A stretch of 64,000 nt of DNA from Thermohalobacter berrensis (GTDB lineage: Bacteria > Bacillota > Clostridia > Tissierellales > Thermohalobacteraceae), in assembly GCF_003609645.1 (NCBI RefSeq), contig NZ_MCIB01000034.1, forward strand, positions 62,001-126,000, given 5' to 3'. Both the position numbers and the translations under genes were made by a program. The notes below the pieces were generated by a model. The model ran no database searches. It had not been told where the DNA came from and saw only the letters and a list, made by a program, of their open reading frames with translations. This document shows positions 19,904-56,657 of the stretch, one piece after another. Position 1 is the first letter of the stretch. Every line of letters begins with the position of its first letter.

Positions 19904-22255
19904 ATGAGTAATTATAAGTATATAAAATGGTTCAATGAAATTAATAAAGATAATATTTCACTAGTTGGGGGTAAAGGAGCTAATTTAGGTGAATTAACCA
20001 TAAAGGGTGTTAATGTACCACCTGGTTTTTGTATAACAGCACCTGCATATACTTACTTTATAAACAGTGCTAATCTAGATGATGGAATAAAAAAGATTGT
20101 TAAAGGTCTTAATATAGAAGATTCTAATGAGCTTCAAGAAAAAAGTGCAGAAATAAGAAAATTAATTGAAGAGGCAGATATTCCAGAGGAGTTAGTTAAG
20201 GAAATAGAAAATGCTTATTTAGAATTTAGTGAAAAAGTAAATTTACAGAATCCAAGGGTTGCAATAAGAAGTTCTGCAACAGCAGAAGATCTTCCTGATG
20301 CTTCCTTTGCAGGACAGCAGGATACTTACCTTCATATAAAGGGAGTTAAAGAAGTTATTCAATATGCCAAAAAGTGTTGGGCATCTCTTTGGACAGGTAG
20401 AGCAATATATTATAGAGAGAAAAAGGGATTTGACCATTTTATAGTTTCATTAAGTGTTGTTGTACAAAAGATGGTTAATAGTAAGATATCTGGTGTAATG
20501 TTTACTGCTAATCCTATTACAAACGATTCTAAAGAAATAATGATTAATGCAAGCTGGGGATTAGGAGAGTCAGTAGTTTCAGGAACAGTTACTCCAGATG
20601 AATTTATTGTAAATAAGGAAGGGTTAAGTATTGTTGAAAAGAATATAGCAGAAAAAAATACTATGATAATAGAAAAGGAAGAAGGTATTGGAACTATAGA
20701 AGTAAAGGTAAAGGATATATTAGGAGAAAATGCTGTAAATGCACAATGTATAAGTGATGAGGAAGTTAAGAATTTAGCTAATAGTGGAATTACAATTGAG
20801 AAACTATATAACTCTCCACAGGATATTGAATGGGCAATTGATAATGATACTGAAGAGTTATATATATTACAATCTAGACCTATTACTACACTTAAAGACA
20901 AAAAAGAAGAGGTGGTTGAAGTGAAAAAGGAAAAGGTAGTTTTAGTGAAGGGATTAGCTGCATCACCTGGAATGGGTGCTGGTAAGGTTAGAAATATAAA
21001 AGATATAAATGAAATATCAAAGGTTCAAGAAGGAGATATTCTTGTAACTACAATGACAAATCCTGATATGGTTCCTGCAATGAGAAGGGCTAAAGCAGTG
21101 GTAACTGATGAAGGTGGAAGAACTTGTCATGCAGCTATTGTTTCAAGGGAATTGGGAATACCTTGTATAGTAGGAGCTAAGAATGCAAGTAAGATACTTG
21201 AGGATGAAAAGGTTATTACAGTAGATGCAACTAGAGGAGTAGTATATGATGGAAAGGTTATTGATGAAGATAAAGAAAGTAAAAAGGAACAGTCAGGTAA
21301 TATAAGTATAAATGAAGAGTTATTACACCAATTAGCACCAATAACAGGAACAAAAATATATATGAATTTAGGAGAACCTTCTATAATAGATAAATATAAG
21401 CACTTACCTTTTGATGGCATAGGTCTTATGAGAACAGAGTTTATTTTTACAAATCTAGTTGGTGCCCATCCAATGTATTTACTTAAAACAGGCCAAGAAA
21501 AATTATTTATAGAGAAAATGGCTGAGGGAATAACAAAAGTAGCTCAAAAAATATATCCAAGACCCCTTGTAGTAAGATTAAGTGACTTTAGAACCAATGA
21601 ATTTAGAGGACTAAAGGGTGGAGAAGAGGTAGAACCAGTAGAGAATAACCCTATGATAGGTTGGAGAGGTGTATCAAGATATATTTCTCCTGAATATGAA
21701 GAAGGTTTTAGATTAGAATGTAAAGCTATAAGAAAGGTTAGAGAAGAATATGGTTTAATCAATGTATGGACTATGCTTCCTTTTGTTAGAACTACATGGG
21801 AGCTTAAAAAGGCTAAGGAAATAATGGCATCAGAGGGTCTTGTTCAAAGTAATAACTTTAAAATATGGATAATGGCGGAAGTACCATCAGTTATATTCCA
21901 AGCTGAAGAATTTGCACAACTTGTAGATGGGTTTAGTATAGGTAGTAATGATTTAACACAATTAATTTTAGGTGCAGATAGGGATTCAGGAATATTAAAT
22001 AGTATGGGATATTTTGATGAAAGGGACCCTGCTGTTAAAAAGGCAATATCTACACTAATTAAAGCTGCCCATAAGTATGGAAAAATTGTATCAATCTGTG
22101 GCCAAGGACCTTCATTATATCCAGAATTTGCAGAGTTCTTAGTAAAAGAGGGTATAGATAGTATGAGTATAAACCCGGATACTGTTGCATATACTAGAAA
22201 ACTTGTTGCACAGGTTGAACAAAAGATTATATTAAGTAAGTTAAGGGGAGAATAA
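19904..22255 (+). CDS. ppsA: Phosphoenolpyruvate synthase
   Basis: 783 residues. N-terminal ATP-grasp-like domain (SLVGGKGANLGEL, VAIRSSATAEDLPDASFAGQ, ISGVMFTANP). Swivelling phosphohistidine domain DEGGRTCHAAIVSRELGIPC with the catalytic histidine near residue 409. C-terminal PEP-binding barrel with GLMRTEFIF, RLSDFRTNEFRGL and FSIGSNDLTQLILGADRDS, ending in SICGQGPS. It makes PEP from pyruvate, ATP and water, releasing AMP and phosphate, and serves gluconeogenic growth. A GGAGG site precedes the ATG and TATAAT (19864-19869) is the probable -10. The 244-bp interval upstream otherwise holds only the splB terminator. Confidence 0.93.
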   Translation: MSNYKYIKWFNEINKDNISLVGGKGANLGELTIKGVNVPPGFCITAPAYTYFINSANLDDGIKKIVKGLNIEDSNELQEKSAEIRKLIEEADIPEELVKEIENAYLEFSEKVNLQNPRVAIRSSATAEDLPDASFAGQQDTYLHIKGVKEVIQYAKKCWASLWTGRAIYYREKKGFDHFIVSLSVVVQKMVNSKISGVMFTANPITNDSKEIMINASWGLGESVVSGTVTPDEFIVNKEGLSIVEKNIAEKNTMIIEKEEGIGTIEVKVKDILGENAVNAQCISDEEVKNLANSGITIEKLYNSPQDIEWAIDNDTEELYILQSRPITTLKDKKEEVVEVKKEKVVLVKGLAASPGMGAGKVRNIKDINEISKVQEGDILVTTMTNPDMVPAMRRAKAVVTDEGGRTCHAAIVSRELGIPCIVGAKNASKILEDEKVITVDATRGVVYDGKVIDEDKESKKEQSGNISINEELLHQLAPITGTKIYMNLGEPSIIDKYKHLPFDGIGLMRTEFIFTNLVGAHPMYLLKTGQEKLFIEKMAEGITKVAQKIYPRPLVVRLSDFRTNEFRGLKGGEEVEPVENNPMIGWRGVSRYISPEYEEGFRLECKAIRKVREEYGLINVWTMLPFVRTTWELKKAKEIMASEGLVQSNNFKIWIMAEVPSVIFQAEEFAQLVDGFSIGSNDLTQLILGADRDSGILNSMGYFDERDPAVKKAISTLIKAAHKYGKIVSICGQGPSLYPEFAEFLVKEGIDSMSINPDTVAYTRKLVAQVEQKIILSKLRGE

Positions 22256-22278: not shown

Positions 22279-22307
22279 AAAAAGGTTGCCCTCTGGCAAT
22301 CTTTTTT
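22279..22307 (+). terminator. Intrinsic terminator of ppsA
   Basis: AAAAAGGTTGCC / GGCAATCTTTTT stem with CTCT loop and a T run; its T run is also the start of the first 42-bp direct repeat. Confidence 0.88.
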
Positions 22308-22342
22308 TATTGTCGAAGTAAAAAGTATATTTCTATGAATTG
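22301..22342 (+). repeat. 42-bp direct repeat, copy 1, with Spo0A-box heptamer
   Basis: Identical at 41 of 42 positions to 22515-22556. It starts in the T run of the ppsA terminator and contains TGTCGAA (22311-22317), which matches the Spo0A box consensus TGNCGAA, followed by GTAAAAAGTATATTTCTAT. Weaker similarity continues about 18 nt beyond. Confidence 0.85.
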
Positions 22343-22399
22343 TTGAAACAATGAAGAATACTGTATTTATGTATTATTGAAAATTTTGTAAGACAATAA

Positions 22400-22522
22400 A
22401 AAAAGAGGGGTTGTAGGGGATTAAATCCCCTGCCTTATTAGAGGGGTGCTTAAGGGTTAAGAAGTACCCGCCGAAGGGGAACTAGGTTCCCCTAGCGGAA
22501 GCGAGCTTTGCTCGCTTTTTTT
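22400..22522 (+). ncRNA. Candidate structured small RNA or non-autonomous element, unclassified
   Basis: Four consecutive stems, GC-rich against an AT-rich background. A: GTAGGGGATT / AATCCCCTGC (22413-22433). B: GGGT-CTTAA / TTAAG-ACCC with an internal loop (22444-22469). C: CCG-GGGGAAC / GTTCCCC-CGG with a TAG loop (22471-22498). D: AAGCGAGC-TTT-GCTCGCTT followed by T7 (22499-22522), a textbook terminator. No open frame lies inside. A terminated string of hairpins suggests a transcribed RNA. The flanking direct repeats also allow a MITE-like or IS-derived relic. I could not match it to a riboswitch class. Confidence 0.5.
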
Positions 22523-22556
22523 ATTGTCGAAGTAAAAAGTATATTTCTATAAATTG
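22515..22556 (+). repeat. 42-bp direct repeat, copy 2, with Spo0A-box heptamer
   Basis: Second copy, again beginning in the T run of a terminator (stem D of the structured element) and containing TGTCGAA (22526-22532). The two copies enclose 172 bp. The layout suggests duplication of a terminator-tail segment together with insertion or duplication of the RNA element. Confidence 0.85.
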
Positions 22557-22595
22557 CTCAAACAAAGACAAATAACAACTAACTAACAAATCTAT

Positions 22596-22691
22596 AAAGT
22601 CGATGTTTTCCCTGTTTAGGAACTCAAACATTTTTTGGAAGAAATTGCAGGTGTGAATCTAAGTGAATTTAAGGCAGATAATAAATTGTAA
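22596..22691 (+). pseudogene. Decayed coding remnant
   Basis: The frame from 22596 reads KVDVFPV, a TAG, then ELKHFLEEIAGVNLSEFKAD and NKL before TAA. The composition is that of a real protein C-terminus, but there is no start, no ribosome site and an internal stop. I cannot name the parent family. It suggests the gene-free stretch downstream of ppsA once held another gene. Confidence 0.4.
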
Positions 22692-22953
22692 ATATTTACC
22701 ATAAAATGATATTTTTATTCTTAAAGATTGACCTTAAAACCAAGAGCTAAGAGCTAGGACCTGAGGGCTAACAAAGCGTCGTCAAACGCATTTGTTCTAT
22801 ATTTATATACCTATGAATTGATTTTTTGCTAAATATTGATAGGTTTGAATAGTTTTATAAAGGGTAAAAAAACAAAAAAACTTTTAGTTATATATAATGA
22901 TTAAAGTTAATATTTGTATTACAAATAATATTCTTTCAAAGAAGGTGATTTTT
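22692..22953. other. AT-rich gene-free stretch with one hairpin
   Basis: Nothing coding seen. A hairpin at 22770-22796 pairs AACAAA-GCGT with ACGC-(A)-TTTGTT around CGTCAA; it lacks a T run. A short tandem GAGCTAA-GAGCTAG lies just before it at about 22743-22757. Confidence 0.45.
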
Positions 22954-23316
22954 ATGAACAAAGAAAAAAAGAGAATTGCTTCAATTATTAATGAGTTGAT
23001 TTATTTCTTACTTAAAAATAATGCCACAAATATTAACATTGAGATAAAAGATAAAGAAAAATTTACCATAGTAGAGCTTACTATAAAAGATAAATTTTAT
23101 ATCGATAAAAAGGAAATTAGAGAACTTAAAGAAAAATTAGATATTCCTAGAGTAGAAGAAATAGAGGAGTATTATTGGCAATTAGCCGGTAATATAGAAG
23201 GAAAAGAAAGTTTATTTTTAATAGGAAATATGATTAATGATTCAAATGTGTATTATAACAAAAGCCAAGAATTTAAGATAGTTATTTGTAGGATGAAGGA
23301 CATAAAATCTAAGTAG
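22954..23316 (+). CDS. Hypothetical protein, not recognised
   Basis: 120 residues from the ATG at 22954 (GAAGGTGATTTTT before it); an in-frame ATG at 22897 has no ribosome site. The protein is lysine/glutamate-rich with alternating strands and helices: INELIYFLLKNNATNINIEI, FTIVELTIKDKFYI, then EIEEYYWQLAGN and the C-terminal FKIVICRMKDI. There is no signal peptide, membrane segment or cysteine motif. It stands alone with its own terminator, between the structured element and the antiporter operon. I cannot assign a family. Confidence 0.65.
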   Translation: MNKEKKRIASIINELIYFLLKNNATNINIEIKDKEKFTIVELTIKDKFYIDKKEIRELKEKLDIPRVEEIEEYYWQLAGNIEGKESLFLIGNMINDSNVYYNKSQEFKIVICRMKDIKSK

Positions 23317-30383: not shown

Positions 30384-30500
30384 CCTCTCTCATCTCTCGG
30401 TACATTTAGTACCGCAGGAATTGGCACCTTATGTTATCTTTTGGATAACACAGGTTGCCGGGCTTCATCGGGCCAGTCCCTCCACCTCTCTTGATAAGAG
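30384..30500 (-). promoter_or_regulatory. SAM-I (S-box) riboswitch controlling metNIQ
   Basis: Minus-strand core elements are in order: CTTATCAAGAGAGGTGG, AGGGACTGGCCCGATGAAGC, CCGGCAACC, GGTGCCAATTCCTGC, and the 3' P1 strand GAGAGATGAGAGAGG. These are the invariant S-box blocks forming P1, the kink-turn in P2, the pseudoknot and P3. SAM binding stabilises P1 and allows the following terminator, switching off methionine uptake when SAM is plentiful. Confidence 0.96.
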
Positions 30501-30654: not shown

Positions 30655-30682
30655 TAAAATAACATTGACAAATTAATATCGA

Positions 30683-30844
30683 CCTTCAAAGTACCCTTTT
30701 GAGGGTTTAAAAGGGAAAGAGGTGCGAATCCTCTGCAGCCCCCGCTACTGTGTGTAGGGATGAAATCTCTCACATCCACTGGGTTTTACCTGGGAAGGGA
30801 GAGAGAGTAAGATGATCTACAAGCCAGGAGACCTGCTTTGAAGG
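30683..30844 (+). promoter_or_regulatory. Cobalamin riboswitch (AdoCbl) of the cob operon
   Basis: Conserved blocks: AAAAGGGAA, AGGTGCGAATCCTCTGCAGC, CCCCGCTACTGTG, CCACTGGG, GGGAAGG, GAGAGTAAGATGA and AAGCCAGGAGACCTGC (the B12-box). The closing stem CCTTCAAAG / CTTTGAAGG (30683-30691 with 30836-30844) is perfect. It senses adenosylcobalamin and represses the downstream biosynthesis operon through the terminator at 30908. Confidence 0.96.
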
Positions 30845-30907
30845 GGAAAACTACTACTTCGGAGGGAAGTATGTAGTTTTAGTAAAGGTATAGTATACCC
30901 TTAACTA

Positions 30908-56378: not shown

Positions 56379-56411
56379 CAGTATAAATAGATTTTAAAAT
56401 AGAATAATATG

Positions 56412-56575
56412 CCAAAATAGGTGCCTTTTTGGCTTAATAGGGAAAGAGGTGAAAATCCTCTACAGCCCCCGCTACTGTGAGCGTGGACGAAATCTAATTA
56501 ATACCACTGTCCTTTATAGGATGGGAAGGTTAGAGAGTAGGATGAATCGCAAGTCAGGAGACCTGCCTAGTTTGG
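56412..56575 (+). promoter_or_regulatory. Cobalamin riboswitch of cbiMNQO
   Basis: Conserved blocks: ATAGGTGCC, TTAATAGGGAA, GAGGTGAAAATCCTCTACAG, CCCCGCTACTGTGAGC, CCACTG, GATGGGAAGG, AGAGAGTAGGATGAA and AAGTCAGGAGACCTGCC. The closing stem pairs CCAAAATAGG with CCTAGTTTGG at nine of ten positions. It controls cobalt import by the AdoCbl level, independent of the operon at 30.7 kb but with the same ligand. Confidence 0.96.
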
Positions 56576-56657
56576 ATAAGTATACCTTCGGAGGGGAGGT
56601 AATACTCAAGTAATATGCTACTTGTATACTTTTAAGTAGTATATAGCTATAGTATGT

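Follow-up and report, generated by a model that had tools for sequence, protein, structure and literature searches.

Group IIC introns have been reported to depend on a DNA hairpin as a key determinant of target recognition (PMC3898094), and in the class that comprises the REP/RAYT systems and the IS200/IS605 elements, cleavage is described as being defined by hairpins together with short, internal guides (PMC8266576, PMC6006769). A transposon-linked nuclease has also been reported to be guided by RAGATH-18, an orphan RNA (PMC11061315), a precedent that makes it worthwhile to look for a partner enzyme of another orphan RNA. RF02937 ("Clostridiales-2") is such an orphan family, to which Rfam assigns the type sRNA. 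Here we describe a copy of RF02937 within a 64,000-nucleotide stretch of the Thermohalobacter berrensis genome (the window), along with the larger unit in which it is embedded and the copies of that unit in related genomes. On our best reading, this orphan RNA would be more aptly described as the core of a mobile element that is non-autonomous and targets terminators.

Anatomy of the unit and its RNA core

The original prediction for this locus was an unclassified element at 22395-22525 consisting of four hairpins, the last of them a terminator, with no open reading frame and with the next gene some distance away. The four stem-loops are confirmed, with a minimum free energy for this segment of −55.2 kcal/mol (z = −4.5) and 0 of 200 shuffled sequences folding as well, and a terminator prediction calls a terminator-like site at 22497-22519, in agreement with the stem-loop and T-run listed in Table 1. 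No listed plus-strand ORF of at least 60 aa covers the element, and the next one begins at position 22897 and contains an in-frame ATG at 22954; this ORF (22897-23316, 139 aa) has no Pfam match. The predicted extent holds for the four hairpins but falls short of the whole unit, which is longer and includes a fifth hairpin, hairpin A, that had been missed. The label "unclassified" was overturned by the Rfam check, in which 22399-22481 scores 61.3 bits against RF02937 (gathering cut-off 58.6); the accompanying remark that the element fits no recognised riboswitch was close to the mark. The RF02937 model has 82 positions and covers the middle of the unit, without hairpin A, most of hairpin 3 and the terminator.

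Table 1. Features of the RF02937-containing unit and its surroundings (window coordinates).
Feature	Position	Strand	Description	Basis
Upstream gene's terminator, the insertion target	22284-22308	+	stem-loop 22284-22301, T-run 22302-22308	sequence
Whole unit, probably mobile	about 22309-22522	+	left end ATTGTCGAAG; right end is the T-run of its own terminator	
Hairpin A (5')	22302-22404	+	left arm about 22302-22318, right arm about 22388-22404	sequence, copy arm table, covariation in relatives
RF02937 Clostridiales-2 core	22399-22481	+	model positions 1-82	Rfam
Core hairpin 1	22413-22433	+		fold; covariation in relatives
Core hairpin 2	22444-22469	+	variable stem	fold; covariation in relatives
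Hairpin 3	22471-22498	+	CCG..GGGGAAC/GTTCCCC..CGG	fold; highly conserved in relatives, no two-sided changes
Intrinsic terminator, the unit's right end	22500-22522	+	stem-loop 22500-22516, T-run 22516-22522	
Second copy's left end fused to another repeat	22523-22808	+	begins ATTGTCGAAG...	repeat comparison

The borders of the unit were placed by comparison of repeats within its own genome and by analogy with the empty sites of a related genus described below. The gene upstream ends at 22255 and encodes a PEP-utilising enzyme (PPDK_N and PEP-utiliser domains in Pfam), and the T-run of its terminator doubles as the foot of hairpin A, in which the host T7-ATTGTCGAAG lies opposite GTAAGACAAT and an A-run at 22398-22404. 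On the other side, a second left end abuts the unit's own terminator, a layout that recurs on contig C17. The repeat to which this second left end belongs is composed of a left-end copy of approximately 50 nt and approximately 230 nt with hairpins, with CTAACAAA and TTTGTTC as flanks, and related copies are present on contigs C40, C17 and C38 (partial). Elsewhere in the window Rfam identifies cobalamin riboswitches at 30672-30854 and 56402-56584 (plus strand) and a SAM riboswitch at 30387-30500 (minus strand).

Among 31 diverse copies from genus g20 the 49 pairs of the named structure are formed in 96.7% of cells, and 81 cells are changed on both sides compared with 18.7 in shuffles, 0 of 500 of which reach as high, although the structure was derived from these same 31 sequences and the comparison with slid controls is biased in its favour. 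Two-sided changes are present in hairpin A, in core hairpins 1 and 2 and in the terminator, and there are none in hairpin 3, whose pairs are one-sided or invariant. In hairpin A they occur at 10 of 16 pairs, and in the mid-stem (columns 8-14) 37 cells are changed on both sides, one on one side only and three are unpaired, suggesting that the two arms are rewritten together. The pairing is clearly maintained, which fits either the RNA or the folded DNA as the acting form. Correction of quasi-palindromes during replication could rewrite both arms without selection for an RNA, and we have therefore not accepted the covariation of the arms as sole proof of RNA function.

Dispersal and placement of the copies

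A search for further copies, proposed with the original prediction as a way to recognise a mobile element, reveals a dispersed repeat. BLAST with 22350-22560 gives at least 40 matches in the unit's own genome (2.76 Mb in 40 contigs; 40 of 85 candidates scored), many of them partial, and the same genome contains eight RF02937 matches, two over the cut-off and six under it. Six of the partial copies share one identical internal junction, TATTTAAG-GTTCCCC (with T/C variants), which shows that this deleted form has multiplied in its own right. RF02937 was found in 7 of 60 genomes comprising its own and relatives (with 21 matches in G020) and, across the order, in 18 genomes out of 249, which belong to 9 of the 92 genera, a patchy distribution; one of the 18, G226, is probably spurious, as the remainder of the element is absent there. 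A pattern scan of named genomes returned 20 stretches, 13 of them in Anaeromonas gelatinilytica. The stretches in Brucella (three), Luteibacter, Desulfogranum and Prevotella proved not to be RF02937, and the one remaining, in Oceanirhabdus seepicola (Clostridiaceae), scores 69.9 bits and likewise lies behind a stem-loop and T-run. Plasmid sequences searched with two queries and phage sequences searched with one gave no match to the element, nor did viral contigs searched with two narrow exact patterns. Genome G076 seems to hold two subfamilies with different cores (L258-L260 and L145), and in copies L040 and L049 of G052 the part 3' of the core is swapped for a longer stretch with extra hairpins before the terminator.

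The fetched loci provided 107 distinct copies, from 14 genomes, whose positions were determined. A T-run at the left border could be parsed in 98, and these were compared with 4000 control runs of at least five Ts, sampled from the 8282 such runs in pieces of G065. Of the 98, 88 are preceded by a fold at least as stable as −6 kcal/mol (13.6% of control T-runs), and in 84 of these 88 the stem ends within 3 nt of the T-run (9.3% of controls), leaving 14 parsed copies without such a stem. Refolding of the nine unparsed copies showed both stem and T-run in five (L265, L219, L258, L259 and L260), a T-run without a stable stem in L051, and neither in L267, L013 and L053.

Orthologous unfilled loci were found for nine filled copies, of which three are clean (L131, L129 and L148) and three agreeing (L216, L208 and L210), the sequences compared for L046, L149 and L211 being too diverged to be informative. 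For L131 the empty site (L178) reads CCATTTTTTTATTTT and the filled site CCATTTTTTTAT...GCAACTTTTTTATTTT; L129 and L171 form a second clean pair; and in L148, by comparison with L180, the host sequence CACTTTTTTGATATTG is split by the element, with a T-run and GATAT on either side. Copy L210 has landed behind the remnant of an older copy. These empty sites show that the element inserts where a host terminator ends, on its 3' side. The dispersed copies, the empty sites and the multiplied deleted form together place the predicted description "MITE-like" close to the mark, and its companion term "relic" suits the degenerate copies only, since 15 copies in G079 are 94.6-100% identical (median 97.6%), indicative of recent movement in that genome.

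The copies are oriented with respect to their neighbours. Among 88 loci examined, the nearest upstream ORF is read in the same direction as the element in 71 of 85 and the nearest downstream ORF in 65 of 81, and of the 78 loci at which both neighbours could be called, 53 have the element flanked by two genes that run the same way as it does. An Rfam scan of 20 loci revealed a T-box directly before the element in L046 and L137, a glycine riboswitch before L139, and copies L250 and L254 behind tRNA clusters; in L046 the T-box and the element precede trpS, as read from the protein. The element can thus place a second terminator in regulated leaders, and may rewire gene control by doing so.

The left and right ends do not form an inverted repeat, and the 5' stem differs between copies yet stays complementary. 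All 15 copies in G079 have a right T-run of exactly five, with left runs of 5 to 9, which favours a right T-run that is carried by the element; 14 of the 15 share the left arm ATTATATAGG irrespective of the host sequence, L120 being without its first bases. In genus g20, 56 of 62 copies have an A immediately behind the right T-run, compared with 183 of 398 terminator-like runs (46%; p = 2e-13), and AT follows in 39 of 62 compared with 26% of control terminators, where the controls are from one genome, G065, and the copies from several. The bases past the right T-run also resemble the first bases of the left arm of the same copy (mean match 2.33 versus 1.98 in within-genome shuffles, p = 0.0006, 61 copies); for 15 copies from other genera an unstratified shuffle gives p = 0.0035 for the mean and p = 0.43 for matches of 4 or more. 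In eight copies the left arm does not start with AT, and the right flank was judged to agree with it in five (L242, L148, L158, L243 and L144) and to disagree in L221, L216 and L050.

Mode of movement and competing explanations

We consider it likely that the unit is a mobile element, non-autonomous and directed at terminators, whose cargo is a structured RNA (RF02937) and which is moved in trans by an enzyme encoded elsewhere; as part of the same explanation, it would be a short non-coding unit of about 160-220 bp, incapable of moving alone. The data show that the copies are dispersed and that they insert with a single orientation, immediately 3' of the T-run of a host terminator and preferably where an A follows; the element closes with its own terminator, and further copies can land behind it. 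The enzyme would recognise a stem-loop plus T-run and join the element there. Because a stem-loop and T-run are found alike at the left flank, at the right end and in the targets, and HUH-class enzymes bind hairpins and locate their cut by means of short internal guides, a HUH/Y1-type enzyme acting on folded single-stranded DNA may be the easiest route. The RNA core would presumably be transcribed at least by read-through from upstream.

No coding copy of the element was found among the partial matches in G079, G053, G065 and G068 that were read for an ORF between the ends; these look truncated or deleted, and the G068 match adjoins a run of N. No mobility protein recurs among the ORFs of at least 80 aa within 2.5 kb of 88 copies, the two largest clusters of neighbours (10 and 4 loci) having been judged from one translated member each. 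Two protein families, Y1_Tnp and RVT_1, were compared for co-occurrence with the element. In the order as a whole, 16 of the 18 carriers have Y1_Tnp, as do 146 of the 231 other genomes (p = 0.037, with kinship and the number of families tried uncorrected), and within genus g20 it is present in 7 of 9 carriers and 11 of 16 non-carriers (p = 1.0). An association seen at first look, with Y1 in seven of seven carriers and neither of two non-carriers, failed to hold inside the genus, and no Y1 gene was seen in carriers G077 and G078, both incomplete genomes. The 16 Y1/RAYT loci that were read share no ends with the element. RAYT-like Y1 genes at six loci (L093, L091, L204, L205, L092 and L095) are flanked by palindromes of the GGGACGGTTCT type, which are a separate repeat system.

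A bolder version of this explanation, which we regard as possible but doubtful, is that insertion is self-guided. The right arm of hairpin A together with its A-run would act as a guide, spanning the insertion point behind any terminator by pairing with "T-run|A(T)"; after integration the guide would pair with the left arm and the host T-run, so that the arms must change together; and both the enzyme and the deleted copies would receive the guide in trans from full-length copies, in the form of RNA or of folded DNA. The preference for A and the match of the right flank to the left arm support such a guide, and the six-copy deleted form, which is without the guide arm, weakens it and speaks against a need for the guide in cis. 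Copy L148, in which a guide C is opposite a host G, was considered as proof of covariation between guide and target and then withdrawn, because the left arm past the T-run is the element's own, as the arm shared by the G079 copies demonstrates.

Movement as a retroelement, with a reverse transcriptase supplied in trans, is an unlikely route. The U-tract at the 3' end of the RNA would anneal to the nicked A-tract of a terminator and be copied there, or the RNA would reverse-splice in the manner of a group IIC intron, which is reported to need a terminator-like hairpin and hence shares this class of target (PMC3898094). The RNA-like structure and the T-runs at either border agree with this, but of the genus g20 genomes 5 of the 9 with the element and 6 of the 16 without it have RVT_1, which is absent from G061, where 23 copies were examined, and from the 81% complete genome G078, where 16 were. 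Moreover, Rfam identifies no group II intron family at its gathering score in the window or at 20 copy loci, and the length of the right T-run does not track that of the left.

The two explanations without movement fare worse. That the copies are a host small-RNA gene family, each with its own terminator and multiplied for use by the host, is improbable, even though Rfam types the family as an sRNA, the structure is preserved with two-sided changes, and a terminator is present. The empty orthologous sites, the patchy presence, the insertion exactly behind host terminators and the multiplication of a form without the core all argue against it, as does the lack of any promoter-like site found on the element's strand. 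The stand-alone small RNA proposed in the original prediction is partly supported, in that the core is a listed sRNA and most of its helices covary, but a site just downstream of a host terminator is more in keeping with insertion than with a gene locus; the element may have an RNA function as well as mobility. It is highly improbable that the copies are immobile back-up terminators, or regulatory modules, that are held behind genes by selection. They do end in a terminator, sit behind terminators and are commonly located between two genes of their own direction, but a plain terminator has no use for a conserved core and hairpin A, empty sites exist, and a second terminator between a T-box or riboswitch leader and its gene (L046, L137, L139) should harm expression. 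We therefore prefer the trans-mobilised, terminator-targeting element over these alternatives.

Comparison with known systems

Rfam lists RF02937 as an sRNA only, and the segment at 22399-22481 that exceeds the family cut-off is here part of a probably mobile unit. The orphan RNA thereby gains a physical context: what Rfam models would be the central portion of a mobile unit that targets points where transcription stops. If this is true, the family model needs lengthening in both directions. Among the titles and abstracts of the open-licence literature we found no description of RF02937 as mobile, or of such an element at terminators.

Like MITEs, the element is short, non-coding and multi-copy, and is presumably moved in trans. 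Unlike MITEs, it has no inverted repeat that joins its ends, the left and right ends being different, and no target duplication can be distinguished from the T-runs, with the addition in L148 of GATAT on both sides. Resemblance to the REP/REPIN sequences mobilised by TnpA-REP/RAYT and to the ends of IS200/IS605 lies in its being short, palindromic, intergenic and non-autonomous. It differs from the REP/RAYT systems in that the alignment of 31 copies from genus g20 shows no conserved GTAG ahead of a hairpin (the window copy has a GTAG inside the first core stem, where it is not conserved), and in its greater length, its conserved RNA core and its terminator targets; the RAYT loci also carry other palindromes. 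The closest parallel in target choice is provided by the group IIC introns as they are described in PMC3898094, which likewise insert behind intrinsic terminators, as the element does in 84 of 98 parsed copies and at the empty sites. Unlike these introns, the element has no intron-encoded protein, is far shorter, and has a terminator at its end.
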